IMG/VR virus record: IMGVR_UViG_3300023110_000105
Location: 1-34,770 of that record
DNA: 34,770 nucleotides
From: a virus
Strand: one strand, 5' to 3'
Numbering within the stretch: the stretch's first letter is position 1; each line of letters opens with the position of its first letter. The notes beneath the pieces were generated by a model. The model was not told where the DNA came from and did no database searches. It saw only the letters and a program-made list of their open reading frames with translations. This document shows positions 1-29,070 of the stretch, piece after piece. The translations under genes and the position numbers were made by a program.

Positions 1-3000
1 AACTTACAATCACTGCAACAGATCCCACAGCAGACAGAACTATAACATTTCCAGATGCTACAGGTACCGTTGCACTAACAAGTGATATTACAGGGATATC
101 TAATGTGGTTGAAGATACCACTCCACAACTGGGTGGTGATCTTGATTTAAACAGTAACAATATTACAGGTACAGGAAATATCAATACAACTGGTACTATC
201 ACAGCCACTGGTAACCTCACAATTGACACAAACACACTTTTTGTCAATGCTTCAAATAATAGAGTTGGTATTGGAACAACAAGTCCAGCATACCAAGTTG
301 AAATAGAAAACACCAGTGCAAACGCACTATTGGTATTAGATAGAACAGACGGTGCTGCTACTTTCATCGAAGGTGGTGCCAGTGATTCGGTGCTTGGTTC
401 TGTTGGTGCCAATGATGTAAAAATAGCCTACAATAGTACTCCAGTAGTCACAATTGGATCAGGTGGTGCTATTACAACATCAGGTACCATTACTTACGGA
501 ACATTAAATGATGGGACTACTGCACTAACATCAACAGTAGAAGAACTTAACTACTTGGATGGTGTTACTGGTATTACACTAGGCACTGCCAATGAACTAC
601 TTCTTGTTGGTGGAGACGGGTCTAGTATTGTAAGTGATAGTACACTAGCAGTTGATACTGGCAATAACTATATTGGTATCAACCAATCCTCACCTGAAGT
701 AACACTACATATGACAGGTGAAGGTGCTCAAACAGCACAGATTCGCATGGAGCAGTACAATGACAGTGCTGACGCTCCAGATGTTAGAACAAGAAGATAC
801 AGAGGCACGATTGCCTCACCAAGTGCTGTACAATCAGGCGATTATCTATTTAGAAGTAACCACGAATACTATAATGGTACATCACTGCTTGTAGGTGGTG
901 CGTTTGCTTTTGATAATACAAATAATGCTGCTAGAACACAGTTTTCGGTTGCTGTTGATACTGATGGTACAGGCGCAGATCCTCAAGGCACTAACGGACA
1001 GTTTAAGATTGATGGTAACGACGGTGGTGCAATCACATTCAACAACGCATACAAGTTTCCAACTAGTGATGGTAGTGCTAATCAAGTACTTCAAACAGAT
1101 GGCAGTGGAACACTTAGTTTTGCTAGTATTAGTTCTACTATTAATCTAGCAGGCGATAGTGGCACAGATGCATATACCACAGGAAGCACTCTTACGTTTA
1201 GTGGTACTGCTAATGAGATTACAACAGCAGTTACAGACGATACTGTAACTATCAGTCTACCAGATAATGTTACTATAGGACAAGATCTTACTGTAACAGG
1301 TAACTTGACTGTAAGTGGCACAACTACAACAATCAGCACTACAAATAGCGTTGTGAGCGACAGTTTAATAGAACTCAATACAGGAGCAGCAAGCAATGCC
1401 AATGACTTGGGTATTGTTATGGAACGTGGTAGCACAGGTGATAATGCAATTTTTGCCTGGGATGAGAGCGCAGATAAATTTATAGTTGGAACAACCACTG
1501 CAACAGGTGCAAGCACTGGCGATCTTACAATTACCACAGGAACACTTGTTGCAAACATTGAAGGCAATATTACAGGTGACGTAACAGGTGATGTTACCGG
1601 CAATGCTGACACTGCTACTGCACTTGCTACAGCAAGAAACATTGCAGGAAATAGTTTTGACGGTAGTGGGGATATTACCATTGCTAGTACAGACCTAAGT
1701 GATACATCTAATCTTGTACGCAACAATCAAAACAATACTATTACTAGCACAACAGCAGGCAGTGCGGCGGCTCCAGAGTTTGAACTGTTTAGAGATATCA
1801 CAGGCGCAGATGCAAACTACATTGGTCAGATAAAGTTTAGCGCAGACAATGATGCAAACAGTAAAACAGTGTTTGCCAAAATTACTGGTAAGATTGGCGA
1901 TGCAAGTGATGGCAGTGAAGATGGCATTATTGAAATAGCACACCAAAAAGCAGGTTCACAAAACATTAATGTACGCATGACCAGTACAGAGTTCAAGATT
2001 ATGAACGGTACTGACTTTGACGTCGAAACACATGATGGCTCAAGCACAGGACTAAGACTTGCTAACACTCTTGTTACTGCTACAGCCACAGAACTTAACT
2101 TGCTGGATGGTGTTACAGGTACATTAGTTACAGAAGCAGGCACACAAACTCTAACAAACAAAACACTTACAAATCCTACTATTAATGCATTTAGTGGTAC
2201 TGGAAATGGTACGATTACAGGTAATTTAACTGTTACAAGCACAGTAGATGCTGACACATATACTACCGACGGACTTACACTAGTTGATAACAATATTCAA
2301 TCTAACAGAAGTAATGATAACATTAACCTTATTCCTAGCGGTACTGGCACAGTAACAATTAATGGAAGTGCTTTTCCTACTGGATTTGGCACAGATGGTT
2401 ATGTGTTAACAACAGATGGCGCAGGTACACTAACCTGGGCAGAATCAAGTGGTGGATCTAGTGACGGAATCAATCATCGAAGCCTAGACGATATTTCCAG
2501 TGGATTTGATGGTTCTGAAACAGACTTCACGCTTCAAGTTAGTGGTAGTAACGTGACTCCGGGATCAACCACTGCGGTATTAATCAGTATAAATGGTATT
2601 ATTCAGGAACCTACAACAACATACACAATAAGTGGTAGCACAATTACTTTTACTACACCTCCTAGTTCAGGAGCAACTTTCTTTGGTATAGTTTATGGTA
2701 CTTTAAGTATTGGGGTTCCAGGAGATGGCACAGTTAGTTCTGCAAAATTAGATACCAATATTGCAGTAACAGGAACACTTTCTAGTGGTGGCACCCTAAC
2801 AGCAACTGGTGCGTTTACAGCAAATGGTGGTGCAGTATTCAATGAAAATAGTGCAGACGTAGACTTTAGAGTTGAATCAAACGGTAATGCTAATATGTTG
2901 TTTGTTGATGCTGGTAATGATCGTGTAGGTATTGCAAATGCTACGCCTTCTACTGCTTTAGATGTTACAGGCACTGTAACTGCTACTGCTTTCGCTGGAC

Positions 3001-3623
3001 CTCTCACAGGTGCTGTAACTGGTAACGCAGATACTGCAACTACTCTAGCAACTGCAAGAAATATTGCAGGACAATCATTTGATGGCAGTGGCGATATTAC
3101 TATTGCTAGTACTGATCTTAGCAATTCTAGTGCAATAACACTGTTGACTTCAACACAAACACTAACAAACAAGACACTAACAAGCGCACAAGTTACCACA
3201 GATATAAGACTCAATGCACAAGCAGAGTTAGAATTTTATGACAGCGATAGTAGTAATTATGTTGCGTTCAAAGCACCTGCAACTATTGCAAGTAATCTAA
3301 CCTGGACACTGCCAGCAACTGATGGTAATGCGGATCAAGTGCTTTCAACTAACGGAGCGGGCACACTTGCCTGGGCCGATGGCGGTGGCGGTGGAGGTAC
3401 CGGATCAAGTTATCCGAACAGTACATTCACCACAGTCCCAGGTACAGATGGTGATTTTGATATGAGTTATAATGTTGCACAGACATCCCAAGAGACACCA
3501 TTTGAAGCAAGTGGTACTGATGCTTTTGGTGTTAACTTGGGTAGTGTGTTCACTTTTATGGATCCAGTTGGTACGACAGAATCCATTGATTACGGATCTG
3601 GTGAAGCATATGTGGGTGCATAA
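1..3623 (+). CDS. Tail fibre protein, modular, 5' end outside window
   Basis: The reading frame is open to the left edge (frame from base 3), so the real start is upstream and at least 1,207 residues are present. It is Gly/Thr/Ser/Asn-rich and Cys-poor, as expected of a beta-structured trimeric fibre. It is built from phrases common in marine phage fibres: 'VGIGTTSP', 'ELNYLDGVTG' and 'ELNLLDGVTG', 'TLTNKTLTNP', 'LTVTGNLTVSGTTTT'. A 34-residue unit occurs twice (bases 1599-1700 and 3021-3122). A Gly-rich hinge near base 3380 leads to a C-terminal tip of about 70 residues. It probably binds the host surface at the distal tail. The stop codon lies inside a late-promoter motif serving the next gene. 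The fibre class is clear; its exact T4 counterpart (gp34/36/37) is not. Confidence 0.85.
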   Translation, partial: LTITATDPTADRTITFPDATGTVALTSDITGISNVVEDTTPQLGGDLDLNSNNITGTGNINTTGTITATGNLTIDTNTLFVNASNNRVGIGTTSPAYQVEIENTSANALLVLDRTDGAATFIEGGASDSVLGSVGANDVKIAYNSTPVVTIGSGGAITTSGTITYGTLNDGTTALTSTVEELNYLDGVTGITLGTANELLLVGGDGSSIVSDSTLAVDTGNNYIGINQSSPEVTLHMTGEGAQTAQIRMEQYNDSADAPDVRTRRYRGTIASPSAVQSGDYLFRSNHEYYNGTSLLVGGAFAFDNTNNAARTQFSVAVDTDGTGADPQGTNGQFKIDGNDGGAITFNNAYKFPTSDGSANQVLQTDGSGTLSFASISSTINLAGDSGTDAYTTGSTLTFSGTANEITTAVTDDTVTISLPDNVTIGQDLTVTGNLTVSGTTTTISTTNSVVSDSLIELNTGAASNANDLGIVMERGSTGDNAIFAWDESADKFIVGTTTATGASTGDLTITTGTLVANIEGNITGDVTGDVTGNADTATALATARNIAGNSFDGSGDITIASTDLSDTSNLVRNNQNNTITSTTAGSAAAPEFELFRDITGADANYIGQIKFSADNDANSKTVFAKITGKIGDASDGSEDGIIEIAHQKAGSQNINVRMTSTEFKIMNGTDFDVETHDGSSTGLRLANTLVTATATELNLLDGVTGTLVTEAGTQTLTNKTLTNPTINAFSGTGNGTITGNLTVTSTVDADTYTTDGLTLVDNNIQSNRSNDNINLIPSGTGTVTINGSAFPTGFGTDGYVLTTDGAGTLTWAESSGGSSDGINHRSLDDISSGFDGSETDFTLQVSGSNVTPGSTTAVLISINGIIQEPTTTYTISGSTITFTTPPSSGATFFGIVYGTLSIGVPGDGTVSSAKLDTNIAVTGTLSSGGTLTATGAFTANGGAVFNENSADVDFRVESNGNANMLFVDAGNDRVGIANATPSTALDVTGTVTATAFAGPLTGAVTGNADTATTLATARNIAGQSFDGSGDITIASTDLSNSSAITLLTSTQTLTNKTLTSAQVTTDIRLNAQAELEFYDSDSSNYVAFKAPATIASNLTWTLPATDGNADQVLSTNGAGTLAWADGGGGGGTGSSYPNSTFTTVPGTDGDFDMSYNVAQTSQETPFEASGTDAFGVNLGSVFTFMDPVGTTESIDYGSGEAYVGA
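1599..1700 (+). repeat. Intragenic direct repeat, copy 1
   Basis: Encodes a 34-residue unit starting GNADTATALATARNIAG and ending DITIASTDLS. The same unit is encoded at 3021-3122 with two amino-acid changes and mostly synonymous base changes. The conservation is at protein level, so this is an old module duplication within the fibre. Confidence 0.85.
3021..3122 (+). repeat. Intragenic direct repeat, copy 2
   Basis: Second copy of the 34-residue fibre unit at 1599-1700 (A to T and N to Q changes). Both copies are followed within about 60 residues by a 'TLTNKTLT' phrase, so the repeated block is longer and more diverged than this core. Confidence 0.85.
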
Positions 3624-4462: not shown

Positions 4463-7400
4463 ATGGCAAAAAAATTGCTACAGTATTATACCTTTGATGC
4501 ATCAGCTCAATCAATTACTATTGATGGTATATATGGCCTAGATAGATTTTTGATGATTACTAATGTTACTGATAATATTATCATGTACATTTTTAGTAAT
4601 TCAGACTTTAACTTTTCCAGTTATTCAATTGACACTGCTGCTGAAACAACAACTGTTGTCTTAGATTATGACACTACTTCCATGTCTGATACTGATGAAC
4701 TTCAGATTTTTGTTGAAATGGAAGGACAAGAATTTAAACCTGCTGAACCATATCTTGATGCAGTTTCAAAAATGCGGGTTACAAATCCACAAAACCTTAT
4801 TGACACTGACTTTGAATATGGTCTTCAGTCTACAAAGTGGGAAACTCTTGAACTTGTAAAAAATATTCCTACATTTTTTAGTCGTAATGGTGATCAAGCA
4901 TTAGAACTTACGTCAATTACTAGGACTAATGGTAGTGATATTATTGATGTAGTAACATCTCAAATTCACGGACTGGCTTCAGGAAATCCAATTATTGTTC
5001 AAGGTACAGATAGCATTAGTGCAAATGGTGCGTTTGTTGTAACTAAAATTGTAAGCACTACTGAATTTCAATATAAGGCTAAATCAAATCAATCAGCAAC
5101 CGGAGATATTCTAGATACTTACTCACAAATATTTGTTGGCAGTGTGTATCAAGGCACAGAGTTTCAATTGAGTAATATTGATAGTATTACTACTGATGCA
5201 GCGAATCCATCAACTTTAACAGTAAAAACTGAGTCACCAACTGGCTTTGCGGTTGGTACAAGTTTCTTTTTAAGTAACAGTGTTGGTAGTAAAACTCTCA
5301 GTTTTGATTCATCTACAATAAATGTACAAGATGGTGGCTATAAAGTAGAAACTCATACAACTTCTGAATTGACTGATAGTGCAGACACAAGTGGCTGGGC
5401 AATGACTCAATTGCAACCATATAAGTGGACACCTAAAAAAGCCAAGTATTATGTGGGCGGAACTGATCCCGATGCAACTATTACTGTGGATGCTGGTGCT
5501 GATACTATGACATTTACAGACGGTGGCCACGGATTCACTGATGGCGATTGCGTAATGGCATATACTGGAACCGGTAATACTATACCCGGAGGTCTTAGCG
5601 AACGTTGGTACTATATAGAAGTTGTTGATTCCACAACTATTAAATTTTTTACATCTCAGGCTAATCATTCTGCAGGAACACCTGTAGTAAATTTGACTAG
5701 TGCTGGAGCGAATGGTGGTTATGCAAGAGGTTGTTTTGCTGAAGCCATTAAGCCAAGTTCTGTAGATACAGGAACTAATACAATTACTTTTGAACAAAAT
5801 GTACCCTATACAGATACGCCATATGCTGTGGGTTATACTACAGTTTCTAGTCTTCAAGCAAGTGTAGCATATACTACTGCTAATTTAACTGCTAATTATG
5901 ATGACAATGGAAATGGCCATGTTGTATATGCACTGTCTAGTGGAACTACGTCATCTACCTTTTCGAATACAGACGGCGGTGCTGTAAGAAACCTAACTAG
6001 CACTACTGTCAGCGGTTGTTTAGTTCCAATGTTACCATGGGCTGCTGATGCAGGCACAGATAGATTTAGTATCTATCTGCCAGACGGCGGCTGGGCAGCA
6101 GATGATTTAGTAGAATTTTTCCATAGTTCAACTTATCCAACTGGTCTTGCTAATAACGTTATATATAAACTTGAAGCATCGGGCACATCCTATCCAAATC
6201 GTTTTAGATTCGTCAACGCTGGAATAACATCTGCAAGCACGGATGTTGTAGAATTTACAACGTGGGGTGTGGTTGCAAACTCGAGCCATCATTATAAAGT
6301 TACTGAAGTTGCGGCAACGCTGCACGATGTAGACACTGGTGAAACAAGTGGATTTAACCATTGGCCATATGATGCATATTCGTTTAATTTTGATGAAGCC
6401 TTTTATTTTAAACCAATAACAGATGAAGTAACAGTTTCAAGTGGACAATTCACGTTTGCCTCAGAACATGGATTAACAAACGGTAAACCATATGTGTATT
6501 TTGATGGATATAACAACGGTACGGCTACTGGATTAACAGACTCAAGATGGTACTATATTAAAGTTGTTGATGCTAATACAATCGAATTTCACTTAAATGC
6601 AGATTTGAGTACTTCAAAAGTTAATGTTACAAGCATAGGTACTCATGGCGGTACATCGAGAGCCGCATTAGTTCGAGCATATATTGGAGACAGCATTGAC
6701 ATCAATTCAGATGAATTAACTTTTACAGAGGCTTTAGGCAATGCATCATCTGGTGGTTCTCAGGCTTACATTGCTTCTTACACCACAATGGGCGGACTGA
6801 ATTATTTGCAAAACAGTAATTACTTAGTTAATACTACCTATGAAAGTTATATTGTTTATGCTAAAAAAGTTACAAACAGTGGACAAACTGTTGTATTTTC
6901 ATCTACAGTTGGTGGATCGAATTATAATTTAAATAGCAGCACTATCAACGGCGCTGTAATGAGAGTCACCCTTAATCCTGTTAAAAATACTTTAAGAATA
7001 CCCAATCATAACTTTACAGCAGGTGATTTAGTGTACTATGTATCTAATTCCGTACCAACCGGAATGACCAGCGGAAATCAATATCATATTACTAATATAA
7101 ATGGTGATAGATTTGGATTTATACTGTATACTGATGCTACTGGAACGCCTATTAATATGACAACTCAAGGTGGCACAGCGTCAACTAATTATAGTTTTTT
7201 GCAGCCTAGATCAAGTTTTAATACAAATGCTAACTTTATTAGTTCAACTAGTCATGGGTTAAGTAATGGTGATCTTGTTGTATATGACAATGATGGTGGT
7301 ACAACTATTAAAGGCTTGACTGATGGTAACACATATTATGTTGCTAATTCTTCTGATAATAAATTTATGCTTGCAGATACTATTAATGGTTTTGATGGTG

Positions 7401-10400
7401 ATGCTTTAGAAATAACACAAAATGGCACTCAAATTACAAGCGATATTTATATATACGCCGGCACAGGGACAACTAATGCTCATGGTTTAAACAGTGGTGA
7501 TTTAATTCAATATTTAAGTGATACACCTCTGTTAGGTTTGCAAAATGGTGGATTCTATTATTTACAAGCAGTAAATGCAAATGCAATGTCACTTTATATG
7601 GATAAGCAAAGTGCCATACACGGCAATGCCGATTCTCTTATACGTTTCGGTAGAAGTCAAGTATCTGGAACAGCAACAATTCGAAAAGCAACAATGGTTG
7701 ATCTTAAAAGAGCAGGAACAGGTACTCAAACTTTGACTGCTAGTACAGTTGGATCTTCTGATGGTGTTTATACTATTGCTGCACTTGATGGTAGTGATAA
7801 TACACAGTTTACAATGTCTGCCTCATCTCAAATTAATGATAGAGTAGTTGGTTTTAACTCGGATAACGCAGTTTGGATAGAACAAGATGCAATTTACTTG
7901 CCGGATCACTATTTTGTAGATAAACAACCTGTTACATACGCCGCAGAAACCACTGTAGTAACAGGTTTGACAGATAGTACTGTATATTATATTATTAGAC
8001 AAAGTAGAAACTGGGTCAGATTAGCAACAAGTGAAGCCAATGCAGCAGCGGGCACATATATTAGTTTAACCGGAAAAGGAAGTGGAGCCCATACTTTAAC
8101 TGCAGATTCTGTAGCCGGTCAAATAATTGGTGAAGGCACAGTAAGTGTTGACTCTGGTAGTGCTGTAGTAACAGGTACTGATACTAACTTTACTTCATTC
8201 TTTAACACTGGTGATAGTATAACTTTATATCAAGCAGCAGACATTACAGATCTTGATGTGTCCAGTATTAATATCACTACAGATGTTTTTACTACAGCAA
8301 CACATAATCTTACAACTGAAGATATGCTAATAATGAATGCTGGAACTGCACCAGCAGGAACTACAAATGGATATATCTACTATGTTGCAGTAGTAACAAC
8401 CACAACATTTACTATTCATCCAACTGCTGCAGATGCTACTGCTGGTACAAATACTATTGATATTAGTGATGTTGGGTCTAGTGTTTCATTTCAAATATAC
8501 AATGATTTAGGAGCAGCCTATACACGAACTATTAAAACAGTTACTGGACCTGGTAACTTGGAGTTGACTGCTAATGCAGATTTCTCGCTTGACACACAAA
8601 ACTACGCAATTGGAACATCATTGCTAATTCGTGCAGATGGATTTGCAATACACAGACCATATGATGGCGGTGTTGATCTAGTACCTTCAAAGAACCCCGA
8701 TAGCACTATGATACGTCAAACTAGAAGATATTTTAGATATCAATCTGGTAAGAGTATTCAAGTTTCATTTGCTATAAATTTTAGTCCAACAACACAAATT
8801 GAAAAAATGGTTTATGATTCTGGTACAGATCTTGCCACAATAACTACTCGTCATCCTCATAGACTTGCTGACTCGCTTAGTGTAGTAGTTTCAAATGCTA
8901 CGACAACAAGCCCTTCAAATTATTGGAATGGAACTCATGCTATTGACAGTATTGTAGATGATTACAATTTCAAAGTAACTTTGAGCGGAGGAGATCCTAC
9001 AACGGATGCAGTTACAGGTGCTGGTGGATTACCAGAATTCTATGTATCAAGTTGGACAAACAGTGCTTTACGTTGTGGTTTATTTGATGATCAGAACGGA
9101 TTGTTCTTTGAATATGATGGATCAACTCTCTATTGTTGTAGAAGAAGTTCTATTACACAACTAAGTGGAACTGCATCTGTTGCGTTTAGAAGTGGACAAA
9201 TTACTGGAACCAATACTAGATTTACTAGTCAAGTTGCAGTTGGAGATAAACTTGTTATTAAAGGACAGACGCACGTTGTAACAAACATAGCAAGCGACAC
9301 TTCACTGTATATTATGCCTTCTTATCGAGGCGTAGATAATTCAAATGTAATCATTACAAAAACAGAAGTTACTCGAGTTGCACAGGCCAACTGGAACCTA
9401 GATCCATGTGATGGCACTGGGCCAACAGGGTTCTTCTTAAGGCCGTATCGTATTCAAATGGCGTATATTGATTATAGTTGGTATGGTGCTGGTAAAGTAC
9501 GGTTTGGATTTAAAGATCAAAGAGGACAGGTTGTCTATGTGCATGAATTTATACACAACAACCAGAATACCGAAGCATACATGCGTTCTGGTAACTTGCC
9601 TGCTAGATATGAAATTGAAAACATTGGTACACCGACTTATGTTCCTGCGCTTGCACACTGGGGTACTTCAGTTATTATGGATGGTAAATTTGATCCTGAT
9701 AATGCTTATCTATTCACTGCATCAAGTAATAACGTTCAGCTCACTGGTAGTAATGAAGTGACAGTCTCTGCTAGAGCAGAAACTACTAATTATTATTACT
9801 ATTTTTATAATAATAGATGGTACACATTGGGAAGAGCACTTCTCATTGAGACTCCTAGTTTTGTTTATAACTCTATTCCCGGCGGTGTTAGCATTACCGG
9901 AGCAAACCTCACAAGCACAAAAACTCAAAATCCAAGTACATTCTTTGGCTTGCCTAGTCAACCGTATCAAGTTAGTTTAAGAACAAGATACGGAAGCACT
10001 GGTGCATCTGCAACTGAAGAGATAAGAAATCTTTTGTTGCTTGACAGGGCTCCAACTGGAACTTCTGGCACTGATAGCGACTACACAGCAACAATATCAA
10101 CAACTGGTGCACCGGTAGTTTATGATGTACCTCTTATTAGTATTAGACTAGCACCTTCAGTTGATACAAATACTCCGGGATTCTTAGGTGAGAGAGAAAT
10201 TATCAATCGTATGCAGTTGATTCTTAATTCAGTTGGTATTCTTACAACACACAACTGTAGAATTACTTTACGATTGAATGGTCTCATAACAAATACTTCC
10301 TGGGAACGAGTACAAAACCCGAGCTTGAGTCAACTTATATATCATACAAACCAAGATAGTATTAGTGGAGGAATTGATATATTTGAATTTAGAGCACAGG

Positions 10401-10621
10401 GTGGAACGGGTGCAAGTGGCAGAAGTGCGGTTGTTACTGACCAAGATCTTGGAGAAATTGTTACGCTTGGTAATTCTATTCTCGGAGGCGACAACGTGTT
10501 CCCAGATGGTCCTGATGTACTAACAATTGTTGCTATACTATCAGAAGATCCCTCTACTGTGTCAACAAGTAATCCATTCAACGTAACAGGTAGAATATCA
10601 TGGTCGGAATCTCAGGCTTAA
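4463..10621 (+). CDS. Giant virion protein (2052 aa), fibre or baseplate-associated
   Basis: The largest gene here. GGAGG at 4448-4452 precedes the ATG. The first ~130 residues form a head region with 'DTDFEYGLQSTKW' (from residue 114), a phrase I associate with large marine T4-like virion proteins. The middle has about nine copies of a module starting 'HGLxxGDxVxY', then 'GLTDGxxYYV' and a beta-strand, at residues ~169, 356, 669, 849, 931, 1007, 1149, 1281 and 1466. Two further units follow the pattern 'TVSVDSGSAVVTGTDTNF'. The C-terminal third is non-repetitive, with 'QMAYIDYSWYGAGKVRFGF' from residue 1665. It is probably a long fibre or baseplate arm. No enzyme motif is visible. Its position among fibre genes supports a structural role. 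Confidence 0.75.
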   Translation: MAKKLLQYYTFDASAQSITIDGIYGLDRFLMITNVTDNIIMYIFSNSDFNFSSYSIDTAAETTTVVLDYDTTSMSDTDELQIFVEMEGQEFKPAEPYLDAVSKMRVTNPQNLIDTDFEYGLQSTKWETLELVKNIPTFFSRNGDQALELTSITRTNGSDIIDVVTSQIHGLASGNPIIVQGTDSISANGAFVVTKIVSTTEFQYKAKSNQSATGDILDTYSQIFVGSVYQGTEFQLSNIDSITTDAANPSTLTVKTESPTGFAVGTSFFLSNSVGSKTLSFDSSTINVQDGGYKVETHTTSELTDSADTSGWAMTQLQPYKWTPKKAKYYVGGTDPDATITVDAGADTMTFTDGGHGFTDGDCVMAYTGTGNTIPGGLSERWYYIEVVDSTTIKFFTSQANHSAGTPVVNLTSAGANGGYARGCFAEAIKPSSVDTGTNTITFEQNVPYTDTPYAVGYTTVSSLQASVAYTTANLTANYDDNGNGHVVYALSSGTTSSTFSNTDGGAVRNLTSTTVSGCLVPMLPWAADAGTDRFSIYLPDGGWAADDLVEFFHSSTYPTGLANNVIYKLEASGTSYPNRFRFVNAGITSASTDVVEFTTWGVVANSSHHYKVTEVAATLHDVDTGETSGFNHWPYDAYSFNFDEAFYFKPITDEVTVSSGQFTFASEHGLTNGKPYVYFDGYNNGTATGLTDSRWYYIKVVDANTIEFHLNADLSTSKVNVTSIGTHGGTSRAALVRAYIGDSIDINSDELTFTEALGNASSGGSQAYIASYTTMGGLNYLQNSNYLVNTTYESYIVYAKKVTNSGQTVVFSSTVGGSNYNLNSSTINGAVMRVTLNPVKNTLRIPNHNFTAGDLVYYVSNSVPTGMTSGNQYHITNINGDRFGFILYTDATGTPINMTTQGGTASTNYSFLQPRSSFNTNANFISSTSHGLSNGDLVVYDNDGGTTIKGLTDGNTYYVANSSDNKFMLADTINGFDGDALEITQNGTQITSDIYIYAGTGTTNAHGLNSGDLIQYLSDTPLLGLQNGGFYYLQAVNANAMSLYMDKQSAIHGNADSLIRFGRSQVSGTATIRKATMVDLKRAGTGTQTLTASTVGSSDGVYTIAALDGSDNTQFTMSASSQINDRVVGFNSDNAVWIEQDAIYLPDHYFVDKQPVTYAAETTVVTGLTDSTVYYIIRQSRNWVRLATSEANAAAGTYISLTGKGSGAHTLTADSVAGQIIGEGTVSVDSGSAVVTGTDTNFTSFFNTGDSITLYQAADITDLDVSSINITTDVFTTATHNLTTEDMLIMNAGTAPAGTTNGYIYYVAVVTTTTFTIHPTAADATAGTNTIDISDVGSSVSFQIYNDLGAAYTRTIKTVTGPGNLELTANADFSLDTQNYAIGTSLLIRADGFAIHRPYDGGVDLVPSKNPDSTMIRQTRRYFRYQSGKSIQVSFAINFSPTTQIEKMVYDSGTDLATITTRHPHRLADSLSVVVSNATTTSPSNYWNGTHAIDSIVDDYNFKVTLSGGDPTTDAVTGAGGLPEFYVSSWTNSALRCGLFDDQNGLFFEYDGSTLYCCRRSSITQLSGTASVAFRSGQITGTNTRFTSQVAVGDKLVIKGQTHVVTNIASDTSLYIMPSYRGVDNSNVIITKTEVTRVAQANWNLDPCDGTGPTGFFLRPYRIQMAYIDYSWYGAGKVRFGFKDQRGQVVYVHEFIHNNQNTEAYMRSGNLPARYEIENIGTPTYVPALAHWGTSVIMDGKFDPDNAYLFTASSNNVQLTGSNEVTVSARAETTNYYYYFYNNRWYTLGRALLIETPSFVYNSIPGGVSITGANLTSTKTQNPSTFFGLPSQPYQVSLRTRYGSTGASATEEIRNLLLLDRAPTGTSGTDSDYTATISTTGAPVVYDVPLISIRLAPSVDTNTPGFLGEREIINRMQLILNSVGILTTHNCRITLRLNGLITNTSWERVQNPSLSQLIYHTNQDSISGGIDIFEFRAQGGTGASGRSAVVTDQDLGEIVTLGNSILGGDNVFPDGPDVLTIVAILSEDPSTVSTSNPFNVTGRISWSESQA

Positions 10622-10637
10622 TAACAGGAACAAACTA

Positions 10638-11384
10638 ATGCCCCACGCTCGGTTTTATACCAGAGACTATTTGGGAGAGATGGTTAGCGCAAATACAAGT
10701 TGGAAAACACGCAATGATCCAGACAGTATGACCTGGGTTGAAAAAACTATTTTCAATGAAGAACATAATAGTGTTGCGCATGTTATAGGTAACAGCACAT
10801 CAAGAAAAGATTTTAATTTACCTTTACTAAAAGGACAACACGGTGGCGAAGGTGGCGTACAGAGTGTTGGACAAACTTATGGATGCAATTTACTCTACAA
10901 AGATTTTGCTCCGGATTTTTTAATTTGCACTAACAAAATTATTTGTAAAGAATTAGTAGACAGTGGTTATTGCGAAGATAATATTGTTTACTCCAATGTA
11001 AAAAATATACTACAACACCCAGGCCACTTTCATTTATATCCAAAATTATTTACAGCAAGCATAGGCAATTTAGCACTTAGACTAGCATGTGCTGATGGTC
11101 ATAAGACTGTTTTTATGTTGGGTATGACAACCTACAATACAGAAACAGATAATATATACTATGAACAACATGAAGTGTATAAAACTGTAAATCAGTCTGG
11201 TGCTAATAACAAACTAGTTAATGACAGTTGTAAAATATTTTTAACTTATCCAGATGTAAAATTTTATTATGTGTGTAAAGATCCTGGACTAATGCCGGAA
11301 GAATATAACTGGTGTCCTAATGTAGAAGAAATTACAGTACTACAGTATTATAATCTAGCACAGTTAGGTGCTATTGCACATTAG
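10638..11384 (+). CDS. DUF115/Maf-like protein, possible glycan-linked enzyme
   Basis: 248 residues, preceded by AGGAA eight bases before the ATG. The N-terminal half contains 'HVIGNSTSRKDFNLPLL' followed by 'YGCNLLYKDFAPDFLICTN', and the second half 'GNLALRLACADGHKTVFMLG'. This order (GNGPS-like loop, 'PDyl..tD' strand, then 'A...G.k.i.l.G') is the pattern of the DUF115 / MptE-like / motility accessory factor group, some members of which take part in flagellin glycosylation. Family membership is by eye and not certain. It follows the fibre genes, so modification of a fibre or of the host surface is a reasonable guess. Its last 21 bases overlap the convergent Nudix gene. Confidence 0.5.
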   Translation: MPHARFYTRDYLGEMVSANTSWKTRNDPDSMTWVEKTIFNEEHNSVAHVIGNSTSRKDFNLPLLKGQHGGEGGVQSVGQTYGCNLLYKDFAPDFLICTNKIICKELVDSGYCEDNIVYSNVKNILQHPGHFHLYPKLFTASIGNLALRLACADGHKTVFMLGMTTYNTETDNIYYEQHEVYKTVNQSGANNKLVNDSCKIFLTYPDVKFYYVCKDPGLMPEEYNWCPNVEEITVLQYYNLAQLGAIAH

Positions 11385-11831
11385 ATCTTCTATAGTTTGT
11401 ATTTTATCTATTATCTCATCAATTTTAAATGTAGTAAACACACCGGGATGTAATGGTTTAGGCCAACTGTCTAGTTTACTCCAAGCATAACCTTTGTGTT
11501 CTTTGTTAAGTTTTGGTACAAATTCTTCTTCTACTACACAAACATATGTGCTATAACAAAAGTTATTTTTACTATTGGTAAACTTTTCAACTGGGATAGT
11601 TTTAAGCACTAGTGGCATAAAGCCTATTTCTTCTACTATTTCACGTTGTAGTGCAGTGTATTCTGTTTCGTCTCGTTCAACTTTACCGCCAACAAATGCC
11701 CATGTACTGTCATACCGCGCACCGTTGCGCAGTACAAATAAATAACGTCCAGTTGTTTTGCTTAAGAACAGTGCGCCTACACTGCTATTAAATGACGATA
11801 CTCCAGTCGCCTGCTCGATATTCGCCTTCAT
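11364..11831 (-). CDS. Nudix hydrolase
   Basis: 155 residues with an exact Nudix box, GX5EX7REUXEEXGU, at residues 49-71 (GKVERDE ... REIVEEIGF). The family cleaves nucleoside diphosphates linked to another group X (dNTP cleaning, ADP-ribose, sugar nucleotides, RNA caps); the substrate cannot be told here. The Arg/Tyr-rich strand before the box and the 'YAWSKLDSWP' region after it fit the whole fold, so the gene looks intact. The ATG lies inside the end of gp15 in another frame (44-base overlap) with no good Shine-Dalgarno, so translation may be coupled to gp15. The 3' end overlaps the convergent gene. Confidence 0.9.
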   Translation of the reverse strand: MKANIEQATGVSSFNSSVGALFLSKTTGRYLFVLRNGARYDSTWAFVGGKVERDETEYTALQREIVEEIGFMPLVLKTIPVEKFTNSKNNFCYSTYVCVVEEEFVPKLNKEHKGYAWSKLDSWPKPLHPGVFTTFKIDEIIDKIQTIEDLMCNST

Positions 11832-23466: not shown

Positions 23467-23907
23467 GTGTTTAGCCGTAACAAATATGCAAACGGTTTAT
23501 ACACAGTAAAGAATCCAGGAAAGTATAGTGGTAATAAAGATCCTCGATATCGCAGTGCCTGGGAACATGCGTTTATGCGTTTCTGCGATAATCATCCTAG
23601 TGTTATAAGTTGGGCAAGTGAAGCAATACAAATACCTTATCGTAATCCTCTAACAGGTAAAGGTACTGTATATGTGCCAGATTTTGTTGTAGTATATCAA
23701 AACAAACAAGGTCAGAAACATGCCGAACTCATTGAAATTAAACCTAAAGCACAGACCGTGCTTACTGAAAAGACTCGAGAAAAAGAGAAACTTGCTATTG
23801 CAATTAACCATGCAAAGTGGGAAGCGGCAGCAAAGTGGGCAAAACACAAAGGTCTTCGCTTTCGTGTAGTCACCGAAGACGATATATTTCACAACGGAAA
23901 ACGCTAG
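23467..23907 (+). CDS. gp4: Head completion protein gp4, PD-(D/E)XK fold
   Basis: 146 residues, GTG start preceded by GTGGAGG at the end of the upstream gene. The core 'YRSAWEHAFMRFCDNHPSVI' followed by 'SWASEAIQIPYRNPLTGK', 'YVPDFVVVY' and 'HAELIEIKPKAQT' is that of T4 gp4 (gp50/65) head completion proteins. The residues E34, D72, E90 and K92 fit a TnsA/PD-(D/E)XK nuclease site, so nuclease action on packaged DNA ends is possible. In T4, gp4 acts with gp2 after packaging to make the head ready for tail joining. The gene is intact and of normal length. Confidence 0.82.
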   Translation: MFSRNKYANGLYTVKNPGKYSGNKDPRYRSAWEHAFMRFCDNHPSVISWASEAIQIPYRNPLTGKGTVYVPDFVVVYQNKQGQKHAELIEIKPKAQTVLTEKTREKEKLAIAINHAKWEAAAKWAKHKGLRFRVVTEDDIFHNGKR

Positions 23908-28818: not shown

Positions 28819-29070
28819 ATGATTAAACGATTTGACAGAGACAAACTAGTCTCTATCCAAGTTTATTACCATATGCCAGATCATGTACATCTGATACAAG
28901 AATTTATCTGGCAAACACATGATAATATACCTGATTTTCCTCGTAGTGTCAAGTTTATTCGTTACTGGCATAAACATATAGACGCTGTCATACAGGAAGC
29001 ATATTTGTATCACACAAACTATTGGGGTGGTACAGAGTATATAGATTTAAAAGGCGTATACGAAGTTTAA
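28819..29070 (+). CDS. Usg-like family protein
   Basis: 83 residues. 'YYHMPDHVHLIQEFIWQTHD' followed by 'NIPDFPRSVKFIRYWHKHID' matches the core I recall for the Usg-like family (PF06233: YrMPDhp.lLQ.FvWQ.yD.aPdFP.l.kFL.fW). It covers the whole family length. Usg proteins are known mainly from alphaproteobacteria, named for a gene upstream of trpF in Caulobacter; their function is not established. Here it is directly before the large terminase with a TAATG overlap and shares its late promoter. No Shine-Dalgarno is present. The presence suggests gene capture from an alphaproteobacterial host. The alternative is a phage lineage that is the family's own source. Confidence 0.75.
   Translation: MIKRFDRDKLVSIQVYYHMPDHVHLIQEFIWQTHDNIPDFPRSVKFIRYWHKHIDAVIQEAYLYHTNYWGGTEYIDLKGVYEV

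Follow-up and report, generated by a model that had tools for sequence, protein, structure and literature searches.

A predicted chain of endosialidase-type barrels with a lectin-like domain in a long virion structural protein of tailed phages

Introduction

The small beta-barrel of the K1F endosialidase is a single domain beside the catalytic propeller; it provides one of three sites that bind polysialic acid, and its loops discriminate hosts (PMC12632334). The Pfam domain that describes it, End_beta_barrel (PF12195), is listed in another report among domains typical of receptor-binding proteins (PMC9230537). The tail-associated BACON repeats of crAssphage are tandem domains, of a carbohydrate-binding type by name, that are described as duplication-grown and stable within a lineage (PMC6949934). 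Here we describe a gene of the IMG/VR virus record IMGVR_UViG_3300023110_000105 (34,770 bases, analysed whole and referred to as the window) encoding a 2,052-residue protein in which ten copies of an endosialidase-type barrel are predicted in one chain. BACON belongs to another domain family and grew by several single-domain duplications, whereas the window protein has at least one two-copy block.

The protein belongs to a family of virion structural proteins (phrog_5838) that includes those of S-PM2 ('T4-LIKE GC: 863') and S-RSM4 (annotated in its record as 'similar to structural protein in S-PM2'). These share the N-terminal region, the lectin region and the C-terminal end of the window protein, with 33-42% identity in the main segments. 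They differ in size (1,095-1,108 aa), in having 158-170 aa between the conserved ends as against 1,237 in the window, in the number of barrels found (3, or 4-5 at looser limits) and in a C-terminal part that is longer by about 240 residues. The best full-length named relative, UOF81037.1 of MW202722 (filed as Podoviridae, Manatee Spring), resembles the window protein over its whole length (ends 65% and 62% identical, middle 36%) but has a single copy of a block that is doubled in the window, and comes from a short-tailed phage type; the 42 annotated features of its 39.9-kb genome include tail tubular protein A but no sheath.

Already on record are the family itself, tandem tail-associated domains (crAssphage BACON) and an FCCH label on some phage proteins. 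A search of open-licence PubMed Central papers found nothing on this protein or its anatomy. What appears to be new, according to the predicted models, is the combination of repeated endosialidase-type barrels with a lectin domain that holds an inserted barrel, carried by phages of both tail types.

Results

The product of the gene matched the phrog_5838 profile in four stretches along its length (E 4.6e-181, 605 bits). An earlier reading of this DNA from its letters alone (the sequence-only reading) had delimited the gene correctly:

4463..10621, + strand: open reading frame (ORF) of the 2,052-aa virion structural protein, with an ATG start and without internal stop

The same reading had proposed about nine copies of an HGLxxGD module. 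Each proposed position (residues 169, 356, 669, 849, 931, 1007, 1149, 1281 and 1466) carries the conserved His of a copy, and the motif family is real, but HGLxxGD is matched letter for letter in two copies only (931 and 1007), the other seven being variants. In a consensus of 44 copies, picked from 124 non-redundant ones, the motif is longer and reads HGxxxGxxVxY, then GGLTxGxxYYV, then NxFxL. A profile hidden Markov model (HMM) was built from 280 copies of other proteins, leaving out the window, MW202722 and the contig loci L013 and L014. This left-out profile found exactly those nine copies in the window at an independent E-value (i-E) below 0.01, with 11.7 to 47.3 bits; the test is not wholly independent, because the 280 copies were gathered via a profile seeded with six window copies. 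Among 1,000 shuffles of the protein the top domain reached 10.2 bits, and at least one domain at i-E < 0.01 was seen in 77, never more than two. A tenth, degenerate copy that had escaped the sequence-only reading lacks the His; it was found at residues 537-596 with the first profile (i-E 2.2e-9), scored 9.3 bits with a larger one and was missed by the left-out profile. The copies are listed below with the predicted local distance difference test (pLDDT) of their blocks in the structural models; 'both profiles' are the first and the left-out one.

4943..5107, + strand: barrel copy 1, residues 161-215 (structural match 141-227), within the conserved N-terminal region; HMM; block pLDDT 81-91
5510..5686, + strand: barrel copy 2, residues 350-408; HMM, both profiles; block pLDDT 82-94
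6071..6250, + strand: barrel copy 3, degenerate, residues 537-596; HMM, first profile only; block pLDDT 52-71
6446..6628, + strand: barrel copy 4, residues 662-722; HMM, both profiles; block pLDDT 78-95
6986..7153, + strand: barrel copy 5, residues 842-897; HMM, both profiles; top PF12195 match of the window; block pLDDT 74-85
7232..7405, + strand: barrel copy 6, residues 924-981; HMM, both profiles; block pLDDT 80-93
7466..7630, + strand: barrel copy 7, residues 1002-1056; HMM, both profiles; block pLDDT 73-91
7886..8062, + strand: barrel copy 8, residues 1142-1200; HMM, both profiles; block pLDDT 91-94
8282..8452, + strand: barrel copy 9, residues 1274-1330; HMM, both profiles; block pLDDT 91-96
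8834..9013, + strand: barrel copy 10, residues 1458-1517 (structural match 1440-1530), inserted in the lectin domain; HMM, both profiles, 11.7 bits with the left-out one

The structure was predicted with AlphaFold in two parts, each from 37 sequences: residues 1-1130 (model 1, mean pLDDT 76.8) and 1130-2052 (model 2, mean pLDDT 81.3). The predicted template modelling scores of the whole models (0.49 and 0.46) say nothing firm on how the beads are placed relative to each other. The beta domains that contain copies 1, 2 and 4-10 are well predicted (block pLDDT 71-96; copy 3 reached just 52-71) and are not units that fail to fold, so that the bead-like chain of the earlier reading stood as a succession of beta domains. 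It did not stand as a regular string: neighbouring His of the nine are separated by 76 to 313 residues, copy 1 is part of the N-terminal region and copy 10 sits inside the lectin domain.

Copy 1 was matched by a second structure aligner to the phi92 endosialidase barrel (Z 11.5, 84 residues, 2.0 A), to the K1F endosialidase endoNF (Z 10.3-10.6; at Z 10.6, 81 residues, 1.9 A) and to the first catalytic cysteine half-domain (FCCH) of the ubiquitin E1 enzymes UBA6 and UBA1 (Z 7.1-8.6; UBA6 Z 8.6, 79 residues, 2.5 A). With VIA-align, copy 10 was matched to UBA6 (Z 10.5, 77 residues, 1.9 A) and to the phi92 endosialidase (Z 10.2, 81 residues, 2.1 A). As modelled, a copy folds into a small beta-barrel like those of phage endosialidases and ubiquitin-E1 FCCH domains, the match to a solved fold being for copies 1 and 10 only.

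Profile matches to these families were weak. PF12195 was matched by 9 of the 44 single copies (E up to 10, best E 6.7e-4), a loose limit at which 8 of 14 control genomes match too; its curated cut-off (35 bits) was reached neither by these copies nor in the window, where copy 5 came highest (20.8 bits). E1_FCCH (PF16190) was matched by just 2/44 copies (best E 0.0044), below its curated cut-off (29.5 bits), and by nothing in the window at E up to 10. A Pfam scan of the whole protein, which misses the barrels too, returned nothing at E up to 1, neither an E1 domain nor a catalytic propeller or C-terminal chaperone of an endosialidase, and phmmer against PDB sequences returned nothing at E up to 10; only single-copy searches and structure comparison were informative. 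The 44 copies matched 14 families, BACON not being one of them, and it was not found in the whole-protein scan either, which is insensitive here. A copy-profile match to the phi92 endosialidase 4hiz (E 0.11) was rejected as evidence because antibody chains, which are necessarily chance matches, scored slightly better (E 0.064).

The unique ends proposed earlier are present, and are conserved among relatives. They and the lectin-like domain are as follows:

4463..5290, + strand: conserved N-terminal region, residues 1-276, with an IDTDFEYG...TKWE motif and including barrel copy 1; alignments
8627..9685, + strand: concanavalin-A-like lectin/glucanase jelly roll, residues 1389-1741; AlphaFold2 model and VIA-align
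9686..10618, + strand: conserved C-terminal region, residues 1742-2052, ending in SWSESQA; alignments

Within the N-terminal region the block pLDDT was 91-97 at residues 11-80 and below 50 at residues 97-102 and 106-136. The predicted jelly roll, which is interrupted by barrel copy 10 and around whose start residues 1387-1402 have pLDDT below 50, was matched by VIA-align to the xyloglucan endotransglycosylase 1umz (Z 12.4, 165 residues, 3.1 A), to several plant lectins (Z about 10) and to the receptor-binding domain of TM4 gp23 (Z 9.7). The catalytic motif of GH16-type glucanases is ExDxE; its pattern (E[ILVMF]D.?E) was found in the jelly-roll domain of 0/34 sequences, and the domain is for this reason called lectin-like. 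Residues 1742-2052 matched no Pfam family at E up to 5, and like residues 1-95 they are without an assigned family. When model 2 was searched against BFVD, it matched fibres of cyanophages, phage proteins with an E1 FCCH or concanavalin-A-like label, and giant-virus proteins; the lectin-type domain may be widely shared. Bodo saltans virus, Mimivirus AB-566-O17, Pithovirus LCPAC304 and haloarchaeal tailed viruses were among the sources of these matches. In three contig loci (L088, L090 and L091) the N-terminal and lectin regions fall on two neighbouring ORFs, either a split two-part fibre or sequence errors.

Chain length was compared among relatives; cyanophage-type names (Synechococcus, Cyanophage, Prochlorococcus) accounted for 161 of 170 matching records. 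Eighty of at least 585 confirmed contig loci were kept, and the ORF end was complete in 63 and incomplete in 17. Eight complete loci were excluded, six for want of the conserved C-terminal end and two because they did not start at the match; of the 17, L013 alone was retained. Together with eight records that are named phages or the window, this gave 64 proteins (55 + 1 + 8). The distance between the conserved ends ran from 158 aa (S-PM2) to 1,981 aa (L053), with the window at 1,237 and S-BM3 at 1,363. Copy number, which might have been constant, was 3 to 11 in 63 proteins and 21 in DSL-LC01, a protein that may be without the N-terminal region, since it showed no match to window residues 1-276. 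Copy count and chain length were correlated (r 0.76). Length is the better measure because the HMM undercounts distant proteins; L033 and L036, for example, are of equal length yet gave 3 and 6 copies.

All 2,016 pairs of proteins were compared by identity, two being lost to too few shared columns and the others falling into bins of 9, 37, 814 and 1,154. At 90% identity or more, counts were equal and lengths within 2 aa in 9/9 pairs, which fall into five groups and of which four reach 100% identity at the rounded ends. At 70-90%, counts were equal in 27/37 and lengths differed by at least 60 aa in 5/37; at 50-70%, 576 of 814 pairs differed by at least 60 aa. Chain length changes slowly, since the closest pairs keep it: it differs among distant relatives and not among near ones.

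The window also shows change by whole-domain steps, in a block of about 313 residues with two barrel copies that is repeated in frame:

5528..6148, + strand: doubled block, copy A, aligned residues 356-562; protein alignment to copy B
6467..7066, + strand: doubled block, copy B, aligned residues 669-868; protein alignment to copy A

Copies A and B are 31% identical over 220 columns (E 4.6e-21, 78.6 bits; 200 shuffles gave at most 24.3 bits). The window, L013 and L014 carry two copies of the block; MW202722 and 12 contig relatives carry one. In the anchor tree L014 stood beside L025 (support 94), and the window and L013 (95) stood next to MW202722 (92), a placement that needs at least two changes of the block. 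In the block tree copy A of the window joined copy A of L013 (98/98) and the blocks of L014 were not resolved; the two trees do not separate gain from loss.

At the DNA level no tandem array was found in the gene, and the best direct repeat was one of 42 nt (79%) at 5606 and 6548, whose 942-nt offset is that of the doubled block. The earlier suggestion that chain length could vary by recombination is borne out to the extent that length and copy number differ among relatives and that a block has been doubled. Recent or frequent recombination between repeats found no support, and the former was rejected on the absence of a tandem array, the quality of the best repeat, the 31% identity of the blocks and the equal lengths of close relatives.

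The ends of the protein were 53-70% identical to those of the five nearest relatives checked and the middle 31-38%; for S-BM3 the values were 43-48% and 23%. Judged from these alignments, the middle is evolving faster than the ends. Within positions 3336-3800 of L013, about 120 extra residues lie inside the barrel equivalent to window copy 8 and carry a Cys-x2-His-x2-Met pattern that may correspond to a cupredoxin-like copper site; Pfam gave this insert a sub-threshold CE2_N match only (E 0.067).

The window encodes a contractile tail sheath, a terminase and a T4-type single-strand DNA-binding protein, and its terminase (52% identity) and sheath (46%) are closest to those of large Pseudomonas phages of the PA5oct type. 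Upstream of the 2,052-aa ORF lie a tail-fibre-type ORF, an Mtd_N protein and an 81-aa ORF, and genes of the gp15 and gp13 types lie at most 12 kb away. The upstream tail-fibre-like ORF (105-3623) has a weak PF12195 match at 2100-2270 on the + strand (13.2 bits, below the cut-off) that was missed by the copy profile. A NUDIX hydrolase (E 2.9e-14) is encoded at 11364-11831 on the - strand, immediately downstream of the fibre operon and opposite to it, and a 51%-identical protein was found in L053, L056 and L064. Amid tail and head genes, a TnsA-like endonuclease N-terminal domain (PF08722, E 2e-22) is encoded at 23467-23907 on the + strand. A Usg-like protein (PF06233, E 4.2e-18), of a family known from bacteria, is encoded at 28819-29070 on the + strand and adjoins the terminase on its upstream side. 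A tRNA called by ARAGORN at 8331-8420 (- strand), inside coding sequence and without an assigned amino acid, is probably false and was set aside.

Discussion

The reading we favour, with a probability of roughly 0.55, is that of a large fibre or adhesin of the phage whose lectin-fold head is borne on a chain of barrels. A self-contained fibre or adhesin is favoured over a part of the contractile tail because the MW202722 relative adjoins a tail fiber gene in a podovirus-type genome; such a gene directly precedes the homologue in MW202722, S-BM3 and S-CAM3. The conserved N-terminal region and the C-terminal lectin-like head would be joined by the barrel chain, mixed with other beta-rich segments. 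One end of the protein would be fixed to the virion, the lectin-fold head would meet host-surface glycans, and the barrels would set that head at a distance from the particle and may contribute further contacts with glycans. Over the long term the chain would lengthen and shorten through duplication and loss of whole-domain blocks. The analysis itself shows the anatomy, predicted folds that match solved ones, the differences in length among relatives and one doubled block. The fibre role, the binding of glycans and the choice of the fixed end are inferred, as is the idea, put forward by the sequence-only reading, that the length of the chain may set the reach of the fibre.

Several observations weigh against the fibre assignment. 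The supposed head ranks with the most conserved parts of the protein, with an identity of 59-70% between its C-terminal part and those of five near relatives and with 64 invariant residues in the lectin region of 34 sequences; this is atypical of a receptor-binding tip. The PHROG category of the family is head and packaging, and the cyanophage records inspected name the product merely as a structural or hypothetical protein. Both models are of the monomer. Foldseek matches to PDB were weak (model 1, top E 2.4e-4 with a TM-score of 0.07; model 2, none at E 0.001), so the fold assignments rest on the second aligner. Lastly, the barrel was largely permissive in a mutational scan of K1F (PMC12632334).

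It is possible, if doubtful, that the barrels and not the lectin-fold end are the receptor-contact surface, with structural ends and a fast-changing middle that is an exposed array adapting to host glycans. The divergence of the middle relative to the ends, in the five nearest relatives as in S-BM3, is what such an array would give, and in the K1F tailspike report the same barrel is a sugar site and a host-discrimination hotspot (PMC12632334). Fast divergence fits a loosely constrained spacer too, however, no binding residues were identified in the window barrels, and a lectin fold at a conserved end is more simply a binding head. A related and improbable proposal is a polyvalent sugar ladder, in which each barrel would have its own glycan site, barrel number and sequence would be tuned to the host surface polymer and the lectin-fold end would be structural. 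If that were true, the eukaryotic E1 FCCH domain and the phage fibre barrel would be members of a single old family, a large and diverse part of which resides in phage fibres.

It is also unlikely that the protein decorates the head or neck, or forms a whisker there, as a Hoc-like domain chain giving weak general adhesion. The gene stands just before neck genes of the gp13, gp14 and gp15 types in S-BM3 and S-CAM3, with a 'putative hoc' nearby in S-BM3, and the gp15-type and gp13-type genes of the window and the PHROG category point the same way. The neck neighbours are inconstant, though (a gp15-type match in 12 of 87 loci and a gp13-type match in 2 of 87, many loci being short), and in MW202722 the relative lies between the tail fiber gene and the holin/endolysin genes of a podovirus-type genome.

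A part of the baseplate wedge is very improbable: the protein matches phrog_2885, 'baseplate wedge subunit' (E 5.5e-18), but the best stretch of the match (1077-1234) surrounds barrel copy 8, so that it may reflect shared barrels only, and podoviruses are not known to have such a baseplate. Hardly credible is a passive spacer whose copy number is often changed by recombination between repeats, for although the range of 3 to 11 copies (21 in DSL-LC01) and the 942-nt offset of the doubled block would suit it, the counts agree in all pairs at 90% identity or above and in most at 70-90%, and long DNA repeats are absent.

For the family, known in databases only as 'structural protein', the models supply a testable anatomy, a repeated barrel of known tailspike fold and a lectin-fold domain with a barrel inserted in it. 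They also link the repeats of phage fibres with the E1 FCCH fold through predicted structure, besides database labels. The same protein is found on contractile-tailed and short-tailed phages, with chain lengths between the conserved ends that differ twelve-fold. With this spread, any effect of fibre length or barrel number on adsorption could be examined in a natural series.

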